DNA of 54,859 nucleotides, from contig JAMCVZ010000001.1 in NCBI GenBank assembly GCA_023476565.1, positions 1 through 54,859 of the forward strand, given 5' to 3'. The number at the start of each line of letters is the position of its first letter. Positions within the stretch are counted from its first letter, which is position 1. Position numbers and translations under genes: made by a program. Shown piece by piece: positions 44,499 to 52,977 of the stretch. The notes under the pieces are model-generated. The model was not told the DNA's origin. It saw only the letters and a list, made by a program, of their open reading frames with translations, and did not search any database. Origin of the DNA: Nitrospirota bacterium (lineage in GTDB: Bacteria > Nitrospirota > Thermodesulfovibrionia > Thermodesulfovibrionales > Dissulfurispiraceae).

Positions 44499-44561
44499 AG
44501 GCTATAGCTCGTAGATGAAGGGGGTACGGCCATAAGCGATCAACTATAAGCTACCGGCCGT
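44495..44561. repeat. Weak CCTATTG/GCTATAG-type inverted repeat
   Basis: GGCTATAGCTCGTAG and AACTATAAGCTACCGG suggest a degenerate hairpin between the hybrid kinase and pgeF, related in bases to 42709-42752. The period is not clean, so membership in the family is uncertain. Confidence 0.4.
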
Positions 44562-46795
44562 CATAAGTTCCCCATCAGGGCATCTTCAACCTTACTTAAG
44601 AGTTCTGTGCTCTGGAACGGCTTTTGGAGAAAACCGGTATTGCTGGCTTCCAGCAATTCATAAAAATACTTTTCTTCGGCATACCCGCTGCATAAAATCA
44701 CCTTTACGTCGGGTTTTATAACCTTTATTTCCTTAAAGGTCTGTCTACCGCCCTTTACCGGCATGACCATGTCGAGGATTACAAGATCGATCCTGTCTTT
44801 ATGCTCATTAAATATCCTTATGCCCTCGTTGCCGTGGATAGCGAGGAGCACCTCGAAATTATAAGCCTCGAGGATATCTTTGCTCAACTCCCTCATCACT
44901 TCTTCGTCATCAATGATGAGAATTGTTCCCTTTGCAGGCCTTGTACCCATACTTTTCTCACCCCTTTTGTCCTCTACCGACCCTTCAGCCTTGGGCAGAT
45001 AGATGCGCATGCAGGTGCCGAGGTCCGGCTCTGAATACACGTTTATATATCCCCCGTGGTTTTTGACTATTCCGTATACCATAGCCAGTCCCAGTCCCGT
45101 CCCCTTACCGACATCCTTTGTCGTGTAGAACGGCTCGAATATCCGCTTCTTCACATCGGGACTCATGCCCCGCCCGGTGTCGGTGACACTTATCCTCATA
45201 TATTCTCCGGGAGGTATCTGGAAAAGATCGTAAACCTTCCTGTCGTGAAGCAGGTAGAATTCCGCTTTTATGTAGAGCCTTCCGCCGCCGGGCATGGCAT
45301 CACGCGCGTTCAGGCAAAGGTTCATCAATGCCTGATATATCTGATTGCTGTCTCCTTCTACGGGAGGCAGGTTTTCCTCCGAATCCAGCACTATGGTTAT
45401 ACTCCTGTCGAAGGTCTCCCTCAGGAAGCAGACCATTTCATTGAGCGTATAGTCGATATTGAACTTCTCGATGGAATACTTGCCTTTTCGCGCAAAGCCG
45501 AGCAATTGCTGCGTAAGGTTGGTCGCCCTCTTAGCGGACTTCTCAATGGTGTCTATATATTTATATATTTTTTCGTTCTCAGGCACCACGGTCTTCAATA
45601 ATGTTGAATACCCGAGCACTCCCGTAAGGATATTATTGAAGTCGTGCGCAATGCCCCCTGCGAGCAAGCCCAGGCTTTCCAGCTTCTGGGACTGCATAAC
45701 GACCTCCTCGAATTTTTTCTTTTCAGTTATGTTCACAAAATATCCGTCGTACCCTGCAATCTCACCACCCTCATCGAATTCAGGGTAAATGGACATAATA
45801 ACTGTATGTTCGTTTCCGTTTGAGCCGGTGATCCTCATTTCGACATTTTTTATGCTTTGGGAGGCGGCTCTTTGCAGGCAGGAAGTATCCCGTCCATAAA
45901 CAAATAATGAGCAGAACTTGTCTATTCCGCCGCAGATCTCGTCGAAATTCTTGTTCGTCTCGACAATATTGCCGTCTTTGTCCAACCTGAATATGGCATG
46001 CTCGACCCTGTCGAAGAGATCCCTTATCCTCTTCTCGGATCTCATCAATCTCAACTCCCTGTCCTTTATCGCCGCGCTCATCCTGTCAAAAGCTACTGCA
46101 AGCTCTCCGATCTCATCGCTGGAGGTAATCCCCTTTATTTCGGGATACTCTCCCTTTTCAATTTTTTTGACCGCGCTGAAGAGCAGCATAAGAGGTTTTG
46201 TGGCTATCGCGATCAAAATCGAAACGATGATGCCGCTGAGCGTAGCGAATATTATCGCAAGCATGACGCCTTTGAAGACAATCCTGTTCTCGGCCCTCCT
46301 CATATCGGCCTTTGAAAAGCCTATCCTGACCCATCCTATATTATCCTTAATCTGCGGGATGTTTTCCGCGCCCTGGAATATATCGATATCCTCCTTCGGC
46401 CTGAGCGTAAAAACAGGGGCGTAAAAATCAAAAAGGTCCTGCGTCTCGAAGAAGATCACCGATGAGCCGGAAGCCACGCTCCCCGGCGGCTCCGGAACAG
46501 TGATGCCATCGTGAATAAGCTCCTTCATTTTACTGTCGTAGAAGGACACGAAGACCACTTCAGGTGTGCTTTTCAGAAATGCTGCGGCGTTCTTCAGGAG
46601 TTCGGGATTTCCCGAAAGGATTGGCAGCTCACCTGTTTTGGTAGCCAGTGTTGTTATGACCTCGGCCCTTTTTATGATCTCGGTTCTCATGATGCTTTTT
46701 TCAGTGTTTATCGCCTCATAGGTGTATACCGTTGACACGATAATCAAAACCGATATCATGAAATAAAGGGCTTTGTTCTTAAACGTCAGCCTCAT
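44561..46795 (-). CDS. Hybrid sensor histidine kinase with receiver domain
   Basis: 744 residues. TM1 at about 10-28, periplasmic sensor region to about 172, TM2 at about 174-198, HAMP about 200-250, PAS about 258-360, HisKA with H384 in GGIAHDFNNIL, HATPase motifs NLCLNARDAM (N box), DTGRGMSPD (G1) and GTGLGLAMVYG (G2), and a receiver domain (about 624-744) with D675 in VILDMVMP. There is no HPt or output domain, so a separate partner must act. It is translationally coupled (4-base overlap) to the binding-protein gene upstream; the two may form a ligand-sensing unit. Confidence 0.94.
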   Translation of the reverse strand: MRLTFKNKALYFMISVLIIVSTVYTYEAINTEKSIMRTEIIKRAEVITTLATKTGELPILSGNPELLKNAAAFLKSTPEVVFVSFYDSKMKELIHDGITVPEPPGSVASGSSVIFFETQDLFDFYAPVFTLRPKEDIDIFQGAENIPQIKDNIGWVRIGFSKADMRRAENRIVFKGVMLAIIFATLSGIIVSILIAIATKPLMLLFSAVKKIEKGEYPEIKGITSSDEIGELAVAFDRMSAAIKDRELRLMRSEKRIRDLFDRVEHAIFRLDKDGNIVETNKNFDEICGGIDKFCSLFVYGRDTSCLQRAASQSIKNVEMRITGSNGNEHTVIMSIYPEFDEGGEIAGYDGYFVNITEKKKFEEVVMQSQKLESLGLLAGGIAHDFNNILTGVLGYSTLLKTVVPENEKIYKYIDTIEKSAKRATNLTQQLLGFARKGKYSIEKFNIDYTLNEMVCFLRETFDRSITIVLDSEENLPPVEGDSNQIYQALMNLCLNARDAMPGGGRLYIKAEFYLLHDRKVYDLFQIPPGEYMRISVTDTGRGMSPDVKKRIFEPFYTTKDVGKGTGLGLAMVYGIVKNHGGYINVYSEPDLGTCMRIYLPKAEGSVEDKRGEKSMGTRPAKGTILIIDDEEVMRELSKDILEAYNFEVLLAIHGNEGIRIFNEHKDRIDLVILDMVMPVKGGRQTFKEIKVIKPDVKVILCSGYAEEKYFYELLEASNTGFLQKPFQSTELLSKVEDALMGNL

Positions 46796-47667
46796 GGGTA
46801 TATCCTCTTTGCCTTCCTTATAATTTCCTCCGGGATATTTATGTTCATCTTTCGTGCGGTATCCGTGTTTATGTAAAGGTTGAACCTCTGCGGTGATGAG
46901 GGGGATACGAGCTCGGCGTTGCCGGTCGAGAGCACCGTTTTTGCCATTTCCGCCAACTGCCTTCCCATACCCGCGGTGTCAAAAACGAGCGCGAGCAGGG
47001 AACCCTCTTTCACATGCTTCTCCGAAATGCCGAGCACGGGAATCTTTTTCCGGAACGAGAACAGGTAGACGGCCTCCACGGCGGTCGGAGACAGCAGATG
47101 CTTGTCGGGAAGCAGCAGCAGCGCATCGACATTCAGCGAGTTTACGGCATTTACAAACTCATATGAATTTTTAGCCTTGAGCGCCTTTATCTGCAAGGAA
47201 TCAACAGACTTTACAAACTTCTCGGTATCACTGCTGTAAATAACACCTATCCTTCGCATACCCGGGAAACTTCTATTTATGAGAGCAAGGTACTCATCGA
47301 TGGGGGTCTCCATGTAGACTCCCGTCATGTTCTGCCGATGTGCTTTGGGCGGCATGATGAGCATCCCGTATATAACCGGGATCGATTCGGGAAGATTGAC
47401 CGCGATATCCACGGCATCTTTTCCAAGGGCGATAACAGCCTTTGCGCTCTCTTCATTAACAACGGTTCTTAAGTTCCCGTGCACCTGCGAAGGGGCATAT
47501 GCCCTGGCATGGGACGGCAGGACCTTCTCCATCTCCCTGACCACATCCAGGACAGGCTTGAGCTGGGTATCGCCGATTATGATCACCTCGGCTGATTCAG
47601 CCGGTACGACACAGCAGAGAAGCACAAAAACAGCTATAAGGTAAGAAAGCTGTCTTTTAACACTCAT
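46792..47667 (-). CDS. ABC-type substrate-binding protein (ABC_sub_bind/TrpX-like)
   Basis: 291 residues with a cleavable signal peptide (about 1-25, ending PAESA). Domain of the PF04392 class: IIGDTQLKPVLDVV, GVIYSSDTEKFV, ALLLLPDKHLLSP and VLGISEKHVKEGSLLALVFD. No ABC permease or ATPase is adjacent; instead the next gene is a sensor kinase, so the protein may present a ligand to the periplasmic domain of that kinase. Ligands in the family are aromatic amino acids or related molecules; none can be assigned here. Confidence 0.9.
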   Translation of the reverse strand: MSVKRQLSYLIAVFVLLCCVVPAESAEVIIIGDTQLKPVLDVVREMEKVLPSHARAYAPSQVHGNLRTVVNEESAKAVIALGKDAVDIAVNLPESIPVIYGMLIMPPKAHRQNMTGVYMETPIDEYLALINRSFPGMRRIGVIYSSDTEKFVKSVDSLQIKALKAKNSYEFVNAVNSLNVDALLLLPDKHLLSPTAVEAVYLFSFRKKIPVLGISEKHVKEGSLLALVFDTAGMGRQLAEMAKTVLSTGNAELVSPSSPQRFNLYINTDTARKMNINIPEEIIRKAKRIYP

Positions 47668-47749
47668 GAGAGCCTGTTTTTCCCCATATAAATTCGCGAC
47701 AGCATACCCCCCAGATGTTCAGTTATTATAATCACAACAAGGGAAAAGC

Positions 47750-48313
47750 TCAATCATTTTTGGGTTCGTGTATAAAGAAAAGGAGCACTGAAGAGCATGC
47801 GATAGCGAGTGCACTGAAATAGAATATCGACTTCAGGCCGTAGTACTTGGTCATATATCCGCCGAGCACAATGCCGGCAGCCGAAAAAATACTCACAACC
47901 GCATTGAATCTGCCAACCTCCATACCTCTCCTCTCCCTTTTCGTGAGGTCACCGAGGATCGATCCCCTCATCGTCATGCTCACTGCGTTGGTAACCCCCA
48001 ACAGGGCTTGCAGGATATAGATTTGATACGGCTTGCTTATAATCGTATACAGGAATAAAACTGTAGCGTTCATATAGGCGGTGATAAAGAGAAAGGGTTT
48101 TCTCCCGAGCTTATCGGAATAACGGCCGACAAAATATGCGGTGACTGCCTGCACGAGGATCATGATGCTGAATGCGAAACCGAGCTTCTCCATGCCTCCG
48201 CTGATATTGGCAATATAGAGGGCAAAGAAAGGTCCGATCAACCCATAAACAATCCCCCAGATGGAACTGACGGCGGTAAAGAGCCTGAGACTGTTGGTAT
48301 TACTCATCAACAT
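47750..48313 (-). CDS. Half-length MFS transporter (six TM)
   Basis: 187 residues, six membrane segments, equal to the N-terminal half of a major facilitator. The motif between TM2 and TM3 is GRYSDKLGRKPF, close to the MFS signature. It ends after TM6 with FFIHEPKND, and no second half is found downstream. Either a pseudogene end, or a true half-transporter that dimerises. The ATG is overlapped by a heptamer-like repeat (48312-48357). It sits 82 bases downstream of the radical SAM gene and 82 bases upstream of the binding-protein gene, thus possibly the export step of the peptide locus. Confidence 0.8.
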   Translation of the reverse strand: MLMSNTNSLRLFTAVSSIWGIVYGLIGPFFALYIANISGGMEKLGFAFSIMILVQAVTAYFVGRYSDKLGRKPFLFITAYMNATVLFLYTIISKPYQIYILQALLGVTNAVSMTMRGSILGDLTKRERRGMEVGRFNAVVSIFSAAGIVLGGYMTKYYGLKSIFYFSALAIACSSVLLFFIHEPKND

Positions 48314-48413
48314 AAGGATGAAAGATGAAGGATGAGGGATGAGTTAAGAATGAGGGGAAAAGAAAATATAATGAGACTCTGTCTTTTTTCAATCTTCAAC
48401 CTTTTCTTCTGTA
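48312..48413. repeat. Heptamer element, GGATGAA type
   Basis: GGATGAA AGATGAA GGATGAG GGATGAG TTAAGAA TGAGGGG (48316-48357) on the left; right arm only partly complementary (ATCTTCAACCTTTTCTTCTG). Between the radical SAM and MFS genes, touching both ends. Confidence 0.75.
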
Positions 48414-49694
48414 TTTAATATCCTGTTTAATCAATGTCTCAAGCGATGCGTCGAAATAGGGTTTCTTGCAATCTTTATTATTCACGCTACCGTCCCTTAC
48501 GTACGCCATATACCTGCACCCCCCGAAACAGAGGGGCAGGTACACGCACTCGATACATTCCTCGTTTTTCCAGATGCCTGTCCTGTATGTATCGCTGTAA
48601 TCCCTTACGCCGTCCCTGAGATTTCCCGCTGCGAAGCCCTTCCTCCCGATAAAAGCAGGACATTTGTAAATGACACCATCGTAATTCACCACATAATAAT
48701 CCTTAACCTCCACCTGGCAGGGCAGCGGTTTGAGCTTCGGCGTGTAATAGCCTCTCTTCAACACCTCTTCTCTCAGCAATGCTCCCGCCTCCACCAGCCA
48801 CGGCTCGTTCACGGACATGAAGCCGTCCGTATAGTCTGCAGGCGAGGTGTCCCCTTCAGGTCTTTTCATCACAGGACCGAACTTCACCTGGTATATCCTG
48901 TCAGGCGTGAGCCCTTCTCTTTCGAGATAATCAAGGAGGGTGATAAACCCCTGATAGCTCTCCCTGTCGAAGTTGCCGCCTATGCCGATTCTTACAAGGT
49001 CGCAGGTCTCTTTGATATTCCTTATGATGGCATCAAAGCTGCCTGCCCCTGACTTGAAAGGCCGGTATCTGTCGTGTATCTCGGCAGGGCCGTCCAGGGT
49101 AACTTTAATGCCTTTCAGTCCGAGCTTCAGCATCTCTTCCGCAACCTGCCTTTTGAAGAGAGAGCCGTTGGTGACGAGGCTGAAGGTATACGTGGCGCCC
49201 CTGCTCCCGGCAAAAGATTTCAATCGGCCGGAAATATACTTGATGAGACCGCTGCTCAGTAAAGGCTCTCCCCCGTAAAAATCTATGTTGAGAGATTTCC
49301 TGCCTGGAGTGAATTTTTCCTTGATGAAATCTATGAGGAGTCCGGCGGTCTCGTCGGACATGTAAAGTTTCCCTTTCATATCCCCCTCATAGCAGTATAC
49401 GCAGGAGAAGTTGCAGTCCATGTTGAGGAAGACGGATACGTTCATCATTGAGCCCTTTGCATTGAGCTTATCCAGGCGGCCGTACATATCCCGCTTCTCC
49501 TCTTCCCTGTCGGGCACGATAATCTCGTGTTTCAATAACAGTTCTTCATCCGCCCGGGACAGGGTGCCTTTTTCAATTGAGCGATAGATATCCTCTTTAA
49601 GGAGCAGCAGCGACGCCTTTTTTGTGGAATAGACAAGGAGTTGGCCGGGCCTTTCTTCAAAAGGGAATACTTTTAAATAATGGGAAACCTGCAT
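48396..49694 (-). CDS. Radical SAM/SPASM peptide maturase
   Basis: 432 residues. Radical SAM cluster C94-x3-C98-x2-C101 in MDCNFSCVYCYEG, SAM-contact segment DFYGGEPLLS, and a C-terminal SPASM domain with CPAFIGRKG, CIECVYLPLCFGGC and DCKKPYF, which bind two auxiliary Fe-S clusters. An N-terminal segment (about 1-75, HYLKVFPFEERPGQLLVYST) suits precursor recognition. The enzyme class installs thioether or C-C links in short peptides. It resembles, from memory, geopeptide-type maturases. A 30-residue Cys peptide gene lies 73 bases upstream on the same strand; together they look like a RiPP locus. The product is unknown. Confidence 0.94.
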   Translation of the reverse strand: MQVSHYLKVFPFEERPGQLLVYSTKKASLLLLKEDIYRSIEKGTLSRADEELLLKHEIIVPDREEEKRDMYGRLDKLNAKGSMMNVSVFLNMDCNFSCVYCYEGDMKGKLYMSDETAGLLIDFIKEKFTPGRKSLNIDFYGGEPLLSSGLIKYISGRLKSFAGSRGATYTFSLVTNGSLFKRQVAEEMLKLGLKGIKVTLDGPAEIHDRYRPFKSGAGSFDAIIRNIKETCDLVRIGIGGNFDRESYQGFITLLDYLEREGLTPDRIYQVKFGPVMKRPEGDTSPADYTDGFMSVNEPWLVEAGALLREEVLKRGYYTPKLKPLPCQVEVKDYYVVNYDGVIYKCPAFIGRKGFAAGNLRDGVRDYSDTYRTGIWKNEECIECVYLPLCFGGCRYMAYVRDGSVNNKDCKKPYFDASLETLIKQDIKYRRKG

Positions 49695-49723
49695 GAAAGG
49701 TCTGGTGATTTTTTGTGAGGCAG

Positions 49724-49752
49724 ACGGAAAGGGGAAATCCTCCCCTTTCCGT
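49724..49752 (-). promoter_or_regulatory. Strong hairpin between peptide and maturase genes
   Basis: Perfect 12-bp inverted repeat ACGGAAAGGGGA (49724-49735) / TCCCCTTTCCGT (49741-49752), loop five bases. There is no T-run after it on the minus strand, so it may be an mRNA stabiliser or partial attenuator that raises peptide over enzyme, as in many RiPP operons. Confidence 0.7.
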
Positions 49753-49767
49753 TCTCATTTTTCGGAT

Positions 49768-49860
49768 TTATACTACGGCTCCTGCTGTAGAATCACAGCA
49801 TGCGAGAGTACCTGCGAGCTCCTCCACGTCAATACCGCAATCAAGCACTATTATTTCCAT
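49768..49860 (-). CDS. 30-residue Cys peptide, putative radical SAM substrate
   Basis: Too short for ordinary gene calling. ATG at 49860 with GGAGGG six bases upstream, TAA at 49768. The translation begins MEIIVLDCGIDVEELAGTLA and continues CCDSTAGAVV: an acidic leader part (1-20) and a small core with Cys21-Cys22 and Ser/Thr/Gly; C8 lies in the leader part. It has its own consensus promoter (49907-49935) and is followed, after a hairpin, by a radical SAM/SPASM gene. These features suit a RiPP precursor whose Cys residues are cross-linked. The family is not identified; that it is modified is inference. Confidence 0.78.
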   Translation of the reverse strand: MEIIVLDCGIDVEELAGTLACCDSTAGAVV

Positions 49861-49877
49861 TTTATCCCTCCTAATCG

Positions 49878-49906
49878 GAAATGCCCCGCCAAAGACGGGC
49901 TATTTC
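49878..49906 (-). other. Hairpin overlapping the peptide promoter and leader
   Basis: GAAAT-A-GCCC paired with GGGC-ATTTC, with one or two bulges, lies between the TonB-receptor stop and the peptide start. It could slow readthrough from the receptor gene or shape the peptide leader. No T-run follows. Confidence 0.45.
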
Positions 49907-49935
49907 ATTTAACACGGGAAACCGACAAATGTCAA
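49907..49935 (-). promoter_or_regulatory. Promoter of the Cys-peptide/radical SAM genes
   Basis: Minus-strand TTGACA (49930-49935, perfect), 17-base spacer, TTAAAT (49907-49912). It begins just after the receptor stop codon, so the peptide gene can be expressed without the receptor gene. Confidence 0.72.
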
Positions 49936-49936
49936 G

Positions 49937-51907
49937 CTAAAACCTGAATTTCACCCCTGCTTCCACCCACCGTCCCGGGTTTTTATAGACATCGAAGGTA
50001 TAGTAAAAGCCGTTGAAGAGGTTATGGGCGGTGAGGAAAACCTCCGCCTCCGCCTTCGCCTTTTCCCATGAGTATACCTTCTTGCTGAGGTTCAGGTCCC
50101 AGATGAAGGCGTCATACTTCGCCGCGTTCTCGGCCCCGAGGTCCCACCAGGTGTAGTGGCCGAAGAGTTGGGCCATGAATGATTTCCTGTCGTCATATTT
50201 TACACCCGCGTTATAAGCGTAATTTACTGTCGTCCTGGACGGGGAAGAGGGCTTTATGCGGACATATGCAAACCCCGCCTTGAAAGATACATTGTGGAAG
50301 GGCACGGTCTCGGCCTCGAGCTCGAGGCCCTGGCGCTTTATATTACCCCTGTTGTTATAGACGGAGAAATTGCGTTTGCCTTCAACTTTGTCCTTCACCA
50401 GGTTATCTTCCATGTCATGGCGGAAGAGGGTAAGCTTTGTCCAGAGGTAATCCGTAACCCCTGACTCCATGCCCGCCTGGTAGGACCACACCTTTTCCGG
50501 CCCCAATGAAGGGTTCGGGTCAAGGAATACCCCCCCGCCCGAGGTAAATGTGAGGGGAGGTACGGTGAAGCCCCTTGCAACGGATGTCCTCAGAATCGTC
50601 TTTTCAGCGAGCTTATAGGTGGCGCCCAGGCTCGGGCTGGTAAAGGGGCCGGTAACATTGTTGTCGTCATACCTGATGCCGGGCGTGACAGTGAACCTGC
50701 CGAGGGTTATCGTATCGTTGGCGAATACCGCCCATTTATTGATTCCAGGCCGGATCACGGATGTCGCCGGCACCCCTATTCCCTGGTACAGCGGCCCTAC
50801 ATTGGTCGTCTGGTCCAGCTCGCCGTTGTTTATCTCAGCGCCGAAAACAGCCGTGTGCCTTCCGTGCGTCCATACGAGCTTGGCGTTCCCACCACGGGTC
50901 TCCTCGTCGAAGATGAATTCCCGGAACAGGTCTCCCGCAGCGCCGTAGAGTCCGGCGCCGAGAACAGTGTTGTTCTGGACGAACTTGTGCCTGAATGAAT
51001 TGAGGGCTACCTTCAGGCTGAGTTCCTGTGAAAGAGCGGCGTCGAGGGACGCAGTCGCAAAAAAGGCGCGGTCAGTCGTCCTTGAGATCAGGTCAAACCT
51101 CGGAAGCTCTCCGCTGCTTAAACGGGGATAGCTGTAACCCGTGGTAAAGCCGAATTTCACATCCCTTGATAATGGGACATCCAGCTTTGCATAGAACCCG
51201 TAGTTGTCGAAAAACCTGTTATTCCGCAGGCCGTTCGATTCCTGTTTGCCTGCAAACAGGTAATACCCCACAGGCCCTGTCTTGCCCGACATCTCGGCGC
51301 TGTCGTCCTGCGTCTTCCGCTTGCCGTAGGATGCGGTTATCAAGCCGGAAGGCGCACGGCTGCTGCCTGCATTCTTTGTGATGATGTTCACCACGCCGCC
51401 AAGGGACGAGCCCCAGGCAGAGGATGCAGGGCCCTTGATCACCTCTATGCGCTCGATTATCCTGACCGGTATCGAGTTGGTCTCTGCGTTTCCTCCACCA
51501 AGGAAATTCCAGACAACGCCGTCCACGAGCACGAGGACATGCCGCTCCTGGGAGCCCTGGATTCGGAGCAGGGAAATGCTCCCGAAATCCTGCCCCAGGA
51601 AATCGACGAAAACGCCGGTCACCCTGTTCAACACCTCGGCGACCGTATGGGCGTTCATGTCCTCTATCTCTTTTGCCGTGACCACCGTGATATTTTCGGC
51701 AACCTGCGAGATGGGCTTCTCATGTCTTGTGGGCGATTGGACGAACAGGTCTTTTTCTTCCCAGAAGAGAAGAAACTCCTCGATCGTCTCTTGCGACAAC
51801 TGTGACTGGCGGGATGCGGCATTGCTGTTGTCTTCTGATGCAAGGCCAACAGCAGTGGAAGACAGCATGGTACAAATAAACAAGACACGAAAAACTGCTT
51901 TTACCAT
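49937..51907 (-). CDS. TonB-dependent outer-membrane receptor
   Basis: About 656 residues. Signal peptide (about 1-24, ending VGLAS), plug domain (about 60-180: ENITVVTAKEIEDMNAHTVA, RIQGSQERHVLVLVDGVVW, IEVIKGPASSAWGSSLGGVV), 22-strand barrel and terminal GVKFRF with the C-terminal Phe used by the BAM machinery. Substrates of this class are siderophores, cobalamin, copper complexes and some peptides; BtuB/FepA-like form, not specific. ATG at 51907 (MVKAVFRV) is chosen; the 675-residue reading adds a non-signal leader. Its own promoter lies at 51936-51964. First gene of the peptide locus. Confidence 0.92.
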   Translation of the reverse strand: MVKAVFRVLFICTMLSSTAVGLASEDNSNAASRQSQLSQETIEEFLLFWEEKDLFVQSPTRHEKPISQVAENITVVTAKEIEDMNAHTVAEVLNRVTGVFVDFLGQDFGSISLLRIQGSQERHVLVLVDGVVWNFLGGGNAETNSIPVRIIERIEVIKGPASSAWGSSLGGVVNIITKNAGSSRAPSGLITASYGKRKTQDDSAEMSGKTGPVGYYLFAGKQESNGLRNNRFFDNYGFYAKLDVPLSRDVKFGFTTGYSYPRLSSGELPRFDLISRTTDRAFFATASLDAALSQELSLKVALNSFRHKFVQNNTVLGAGLYGAAGDLFREFIFDEETRGGNAKLVWTHGRHTAVFGAEINNGELDQTTNVGPLYQGIGVPATSVIRPGINKWAVFANDTITLGRFTVTPGIRYDDNNVTGPFTSPSLGATYKLAEKTILRTSVARGFTVPPLTFTSGGGVFLDPNPSLGPEKVWSYQAGMESGVTDYLWTKLTLFRHDMEDNLVKDKVEGKRNFSVYNNRGNIKRQGLELEAETVPFHNVSFKAGFAYVRIKPSSPSRTTVNYAYNAGVKYDDRKSFMAQLFGHYTWWDLGAENAAKYDAFIWDLNLSKKVYSWEKAKAEAEVFLTAHNLFNGFYYTFDVYKNPGRWVEAGVKFRF

Positions 51908-51982: not shown

Positions 51983-52977
51983 AATCCACCATCAAAGTTA
52001 GACATGCTCCCGGATTGAAGACCTTCGCGGAGATTTCGGGCTCGATTTCAGTAAACAGCCGCCTTATGACTAACTGAACTTGCCTTGGTTGCCTTGAAAA
52101 AGCCGGAAATTTACCGCATCAAGGCGCACCTATCCCTCTATCGATTAACCTTGCTCTCTACAAAGCTATAAAGGTGATTTTTCTTTCATCAGGATGCCGG
52201 CAACAGGGCTATCCTTCTACGCACAGCAATCAACAGTTCACTCGATGGATGTAGACCGGATATCCTCACCCACAAGCGGCGGGAATGCTCAACTACCCGT
52301 GCCGATATATTGATAAACCCAAAACGTATCGCCTTCATTCTCTTATCCGCCCACGATTCTCCAAGCACCAGTCTTTTCATCAGGACATTGAGGTTGTAAG
52401 ACAGGATCATGATCCACCACCATGCAGCGTTTTCTCCAAAATCCCCGGAGGGGAACTGTCCACCCGCAAAATCACTCTTCATCGCTGCATGCGCTTCCTC
52501 GCTCTTTCCGCAACGTTGATATAACCACGGTATAAGCTCTTCACCGGGCCAGTCCATGTTTGTTACAATCCCAAAGACCTTGTACCGCCGCTCTTTAATC
52601 CGCATCACTGGAAATAGATACTCGTTATCACTTCTTTCTATCCCAAGCAGTTCCGTCTGCTTCAGTTCTTCCCTCGTCGCAAGATAGCGGTACTCAGGCC
52701 CGTTTTTGCTGTGCCCCAGTCCCCGCTCATACCAGTAGGTGTTCAAAGGTTGATATGCCTGCCACCCTTTGTAGCTGAATAACGCATTCTTCTTAGAAGA
52801 CGTCGACAAGGTTGCATCCATCTCCAGGGTGACAGTCTCCTTTCATATTCGTAAGGAAGCCCCTTCTGTGCCATAATATATTCACCTCGTTGGTGTTAGT
52901 TTGTTTCTTGCACAAATATTCTAACATCCCGTATATACGGGAACAACGAGGTTCTTTTATTTTCTTGATGGTGGATT
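51983..52977. mobile_element. Degenerate insertion sequence, IS1380-like
   Basis: A 995-base interval flanked by a perfect 13-bp inverted repeat, AATCCACCATCAA (51983-51995) and its complement (52965-52977). It contains a transposase remnant and a CCCGTATATACGGG palindrome (52928-52941). If the ends are the true IRs, insertion trimmed the end of the nnrD gene, which lies over the right repeat. Alternatively the repeat is chance and only the remnant is mobile DNA. Confidence 0.6.
52189..52874 (-). pseudogene. IS1380-type transposase, internally deleted
   Basis: The open part (52189-52821, 210 residues) is the C-terminal part of a DDE transposase, from a first catalytic Asp in MDATLSTSSKKNALFSYKG through GIVTNMDWPGEELIPWLYQRCGKSEEAH to the end. 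Upstream, an ATG at 52874 starts a different frame (MAQKGLPYEYERRLSPWRW) that runs into the same region, so most of the N-terminal half seems deleted and the frame shifted. Full IS1380 transposases have about 430-480 residues. Inactive copy. Confidence 0.75.

Follow-up and report, generated by a model that had tools for sequence, protein, structure and literature searches.

A geopeptide-type RiPP locus in a Nitrospirota bacterium with a linked TonB receptor and a predicted sensor

The window analysed here, a stretch of 54,859 nucleotides from a Nitrospirota bacterium, holds a RiPP locus from the geopeptides, a family that is curated yet a functional orphan. In this locus, genes for a short cysteine peptide and a radical SAM/SPASM maturase stand with those for a TonB-dependent receptor, a periplasmic binding protein and a hybrid histidine kinase. 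We propose, with a probability of roughly 0.55, that the peptide of this family is modified and leaves the cell, that the receptor then brings it back, and that the binding-protein/kinase pair senses it. In the literature that we searched, no paper uses the word geopeptide or the model names TIGR04280 and TIGR04229, none describes a geopeptide product, target or function, and nothing relevant turned up on the combination of receptor, binding protein, kinase and maturase; the conserved receptor-sensor module accompanying a geopeptide maturase therefore looks new. The joint occurrence of precursor, maturase, receptor, binding protein and kinase gives an orphan RiPP a ligand-receptor pair and a sensor, both of them predicted. 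Should the proposal be true, anaerobic metal- and sulfur-cycling bacteria own a RiPP-based capture or signalling system.

An initial annotation had interpreted six genes of the window as a possible geopeptide-type RiPP locus, and the order, strand, coordinates and families that it gave are all borne out by sequence and domain matches (Table 1). The genes all lie on the minus strand and run from TonB receptor through Cys peptide, maturase, MFS half and binding protein to hybrid kinase, with an overlap of 4 bases between the last two. Just upstream of the receptor gene lies a remnant of an IS1380-family transposase, comprising its C-terminal part (window 52189-52821).

Table 1. Features of the locus, in window coordinates.
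Feature	Position	Strand	Basis
TonB-dependent outer-membrane receptor	49937-51907	minus	ATG start; PF00593 and PF07715
Alternative receptor start, TTG	51964	minus	
Candidate -35 of peptide gene, TTGACA	49930-49935	minus	sequence
Candidate -10 of peptide gene, TTAAAT (weak)	49907-49912	minus	sequence
Ribosome site of peptide gene, AGGAGG	49867-49872	minus	sequence
Putative 30-aa geopeptide-type precursor, MEIIVLDCGIDVEELAGTLACCDSTAGAVV	49768-49860	minus	conserved relatives, profile match
13-bp hairpin in precursor-maturase gap	49723-49753	minus	folding compared with shuffles
Radical SAM/SPASM peptide maturase with RRE-like N-terminus	48396-49694	minus	TIGR04280
Six-TM MFS half, 187 aa	47750-48313	minus	PF07690, positions 9-178 of 347
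Periplasmic binding protein	46792-47667	minus	PF04392
Hybrid histidine kinase	44561-46795	minus	HAMP, PAS, HisKA, HATPase, receiver

The geopeptide assignment is carried first by the maturase, which is a member of TIGR04280 ("geopeptide radical SAM maturase"), scoring 573 bits over positions 1-428 of 428 where the curated cut-off is a whole-protein score of 400 bits. Among the NCBIfam matches listed, it falls far under the cut-off of other maturase models; in particular, SCIFF membership is ruled out by a TIGR03974 score of 109 bits against a cut-off of 425. Across 27 relatives the radical SAM CX3CX2C cysteines (C94, C98, C101) and seven SPASM cysteines (C326, C345, C380, C383, C389, C393, C409) are invariant. 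An AlphaFold2 model of middling confidence (mean pLDDT 69, with the SPASM part poor) predicts an RRE-like bbbaaa N-terminus. The top fold match of this model (5why, E 6e-18) and the top PDB sequence-profile match of the protein (E 4.5e-39) are both CteB, a Cys thioether-forming enzyme whose RRE holds the leader as a beta-strand (PMC8326336). The window maturase shares RRE, radical SAM and full SPASM domains with CteB (PDB 5wgg, 5why) at about 21% identity, but the substrates differ, with six Cys in 45 residues in the SCIFF precursor and one CC pair in geopeptide precursors. A plasmid search returned radical SAM proteins that were all distant among the matches listed (<30% identity). In three loci (L163, L165, L166) the maturase carries a fused C-terminal extension, about 270-300 residues long, which in L165 is without a Pfam match.

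The most fitting interpretation of the short peptide encoded between receptor and maturase is a geopeptide precursor of divergent sequence. Its leader contains EIIVLDCGID, and its core CC occupies residues 21-22 (49795-49800). Three sources supplied TIGR04280 loci: the window's phylum, where 40 of 396 genomes contributed, the phylum to which a Desulfobacteraceae match belongs, where 28 of 345 did, and named contigs. With few exceptions the TIGR04280 maturases inspected, whether from Nitrospirota or Thermodesulfobacteriota, are adjoined by a related ORF. The initial annotation had staked its reading on conservation of the peptide ORF beside orthologous maturases, and such conservation is what we find: at 40 of 46 maturases a short reading frame that has a ribosome site and a CC close to its end lies upstream, as it does at 3 of the 433 control genes taken from these loci (Fisher p 3e-48). 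Of the six maturases that seemed to be without one, four (L074, L079, L013 and, weakly, L082) have a precursor that is more distant or without a recognised ribosome site, and L136, L168 and L169, first thought precursor-less, have one that is more distant or on the opposite strand. A profile of the relatives, searched against the window genome, has the window ORF as its sole match (E 4.9e-9), and 12 pairs of precursor relatives give a pN/pS of 0.32, indicating purifying selection; together with the counts above, these results rule out a chance ORF.

Conservation of the CC pair is partly by construction, because our precursor search demanded it; the leader motif [IV]xVLDxG, common to the precursors, lends support that is independent of this criterion. 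Among 73 distinct precursors the CC is followed by 7-11 residues in 69 and by 8 or 9 in 50, the core tends towards CCxGAxxPxR, and 60 contain two cysteines in all, namely the CC pair. The window peptide itself has no direct match to an NCBIfam model: TIGR04229 ("geopeptide"), which needs at least 30 bits, misses it, and a whole-genome search with that model does not match the locus. TIGR04229 does match 14 of 35 related precursors weakly, the best at 23.3 bits, and the window peptide aligns with 34 relatives. It is therefore from homology to these relatives and from the conserved neighbourhood, with a TIGR04280 maturase adjoining, that we place the window peptide in the family.

The regulatory signals proposed for the peptide gene have held up unevenly. 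Its ribosome site is present and the -35 element of the supposed consensus promoter is perfect, but the -10 candidate, after a spacing of 17 nt, is weak and was not listed by a promoter scan that demanded A at position 2 of the -10. The hairpin said to precede the enzyme gene is present and folds better than shuffles of its sequence (z -3.2). Precursor-maturase gaps in 71 loci behave likewise (mean z -3.25, 75% below -2) when set against 141 control gaps (mean z -0.82, 23% below -2), and across loci the position of the hairpin is conserved while its sequence varies. Read on the minus strand, the hairpin has no T-tract, which rules out an intrinsic terminator there and makes it atypical as a stop for the peptide message. 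Because the hairpin separates the precursor and maturase genes, the layout is that expected for a precursor made in excess over the enzyme. In one locus (L012) an imperfect, MITE-like palindrome of nearly 200 nt lies within the gap, beside the small hairpin.

The initial annotation had also linked the neighbouring genes to the peptide, and this part stands for the receptor, binding protein and kinase, which are kept in two phyla, but not for the half-transporter, which is accessory (12 of 90 loci). A binding protein is found in 45 of the 56 near loci with enough flanking DNA and is missing from 11; adjacent binding-protein and kinase genes occur in 38 of these 56 and in 9 of 9 distant loci. 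The two genes may stand downstream or divergently upstream, and this variable arrangement argues for a functional linkage and not for a frozen order. The sole PF04392 match in the window genome is the binding protein of the locus. Binding-protein genes stand beside genes for membrane hybrid kinases in the LuxP-LuxQ and TorT-TorS systems too, where the binding protein is likewise periplasmic. The window pair resembles these in its adjacency and in having no ABC permease among its neighbours, but its binding protein is of a different family and it is linked to a TonB receptor and a RiPP. The 12 homologues of the MFS half are 185-192 aa long, share the same ends and have 66% mean column identity. 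A truncated MFS gene is ruled out because length and end are shared; judged by sequence, the window protein is a genuine half-size protein, presumably working as a dimer. A few loci have, in a similar place, a full-length MFS protein with MFS_3 or EntS-like matches.

A homologue of the receptor is present in 51 of the 56 near loci with enough flanking DNA (5 are without), 41 of them upstream on the same strand and 9 upstream and divergent. In the window genome (2.67 Mb, 96% complete) the sole PF00593 match is the locus receptor, and one ExbD and two TonB_C proteins are encoded elsewhere. When 25 family genomes were scanned for both, a maturase over the cut-off and a strong receptor match fell in the same six; by a hand count 1 in 177,100 random assignments would fit this pattern, a figure to be read with the relatedness of the genomes in mind. 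For two further genomes with strong receptor matches, a maturase was predicted and then found. Maturase and receptor distances correlate with an r of 0.86 that 0 of 2000 permutations reach; once shared descent is allowed for, receptor sequence and peptide core do not vary together (partial r 0.05, p 0.18). Two receptor homologues (L182:5702-7576 and L183:6731-8641) had no maturase or CC peptide found nearby, and each of the two genomes has one maturase elsewhere. These receptors are possibly for foreign or shared peptides.

We envisage that the leader, through a beta-strand motif EIIVLDxG, would dock on the RRE domain of the maturase, and that the radical SAM/SPASM enzyme would then modify the C-terminal CC core. 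Resemblance to CteB makes a thioether (of the ranthipeptide or sactipeptide kind) the most likely modification. The mature peptide would exit the cell, in some loci through the MFS protein, and re-enter through the dedicated TonB receptor, after which the binding protein would hold it in the periplasm and the hybrid kinase would report it. Several observations speak against such a cycle: in our comparison of gene neighbourhoods no exporter or leader peptidase recurs across loci, the receptor does not follow the core, receptor homologues occur apart from a maturase, and one distant locus has a cobalamin context. In that locus (L146:1759-8850, minus strand) precursor, maturase and a full-length MFS gene come after CobT, CobS, BtuF-like and BtuC-like genes, and the gene run stands behind a cobalamin riboswitch.

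The lack of a recurrent exporter, the receptor's failure to follow the core and the cobalamin context of L146 would suit a different reading: an outside nutrient such as a corrinoid, haem or metal chelate is imported and sensed through receptor, binding protein and kinase, and the modified peptide is retained in the cell or periplasm, where it serves that nutrient as a cofactor, trafficking factor or regulator. It would also suit this reading that the best NCBIfam model of the receptor is the B12 receptor, TIGR01779, although the score of 145.6 bits is far under the cut-off of 599.7; at that score, and with no cobalamin riboswitch in the window, we do not assign the receptor to BtuB. No such riboswitch was found in 19 other loci either, and L146 being the single, distant exception, it is ruled out as a feature of the main group. 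The confinement of the receptor to maturase-bearing genomes, among the family genomes tested for both, is likewise hard to square with a nutrient receptor, as is the use in the distant or sister group of an OppA-type SBP_bac_5 protein with a kinase in the binding protein's stead, this being a family that includes peptide binders. On balance we regard the nutrient reading as unlikely.

Recapture and sensing of the peptide could also serve communication. The modified peptide might be a pheromone, a cell-cell signal with no metal role, perceived via the receptor by a quorum sensor resembling LuxP-LuxQ. TonB-dependent uptake usually serves nutrients or metal chelates, which counts against such a role, and we think it improbable; still, the binding-protein/kinase pair is conserved as neighbours, LuxR-type response regulators adjoin some maturases (for example at L009), and a quorum-sensing role has been reported for SCIFF ranthipeptides, according to a reference listed in PMC8326336. 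If the product is indeed a recaptured geopeptide, a peptide that binds a metal or metal complex seems to us, by analogy, somewhat more likely than a pure pheromone. A bacteriocin-like antibacterial agent is very improbable: antibacterial activity is common among radical SAM thioether peptides (sactipeptides), but no immunity gene or peptidase-exporter recurs across the loci compared, the linked genes are for uptake and sensing, and the spread over two phyla is wide and looks vertical.

The metal-binding version has a known parallel. The methanobactin operon encodes a Cys precursor of about 30 aa, the TonB receptor MbnT, the OppA-related MbnE and a putative exporter, MbnM, with MbnT recapturing and MbnE binding the product (PMC7558416). 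The geopeptide locus shares the organisation in which a TonB receptor and a periplasmic binding protein are linked to the precursor, and its distant group shares the OppA-type protein. Methanobactin is made by MbnBC, whereas the window locus has a radical SAM maturase, a kinase and, as in the main group, a PF04392 binding protein; no locus protein matches the MbnB or MbnC family, and we do not count the locus among the methanobactins. It is tempting to speculate that geopeptides are the anaerobes' radical-SAM-made counterpart, a cross-linked, secreted CC peptide that binds a metal or metal complex, is returned by TonB and reported by a kinase, from Nitrospirota to Thermodesulfobacteriota. We offer this tentatively, as a possibility with the odds against it.

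Outside the main group, sister-group maturases have about 30% identity and fall under the TIGR04280 cut-off. Their peptides, found at L090, L093, L094, L095, L096, L145, L148 and L149, are 23-26 aa long with a single Cys (MK[IV][IV]KKGxRK...C) and are encoded just downstream of the maturase. Another variant occurs at ten loci (L068, L070, L072, L073, L075, L076, L081, L045, L047, L050), where the precursor has a Lys/Ala-rich, histone-H1-like leader, reaches up to 88 aa in total, and keeps the same CC core and the position upstream of the maturase. This group may have one origin, with which the maturase tree is compatible, some unlabelled rows falling within the group. Several genomes carry the histone-H1-like type and the normal type as separate copies.
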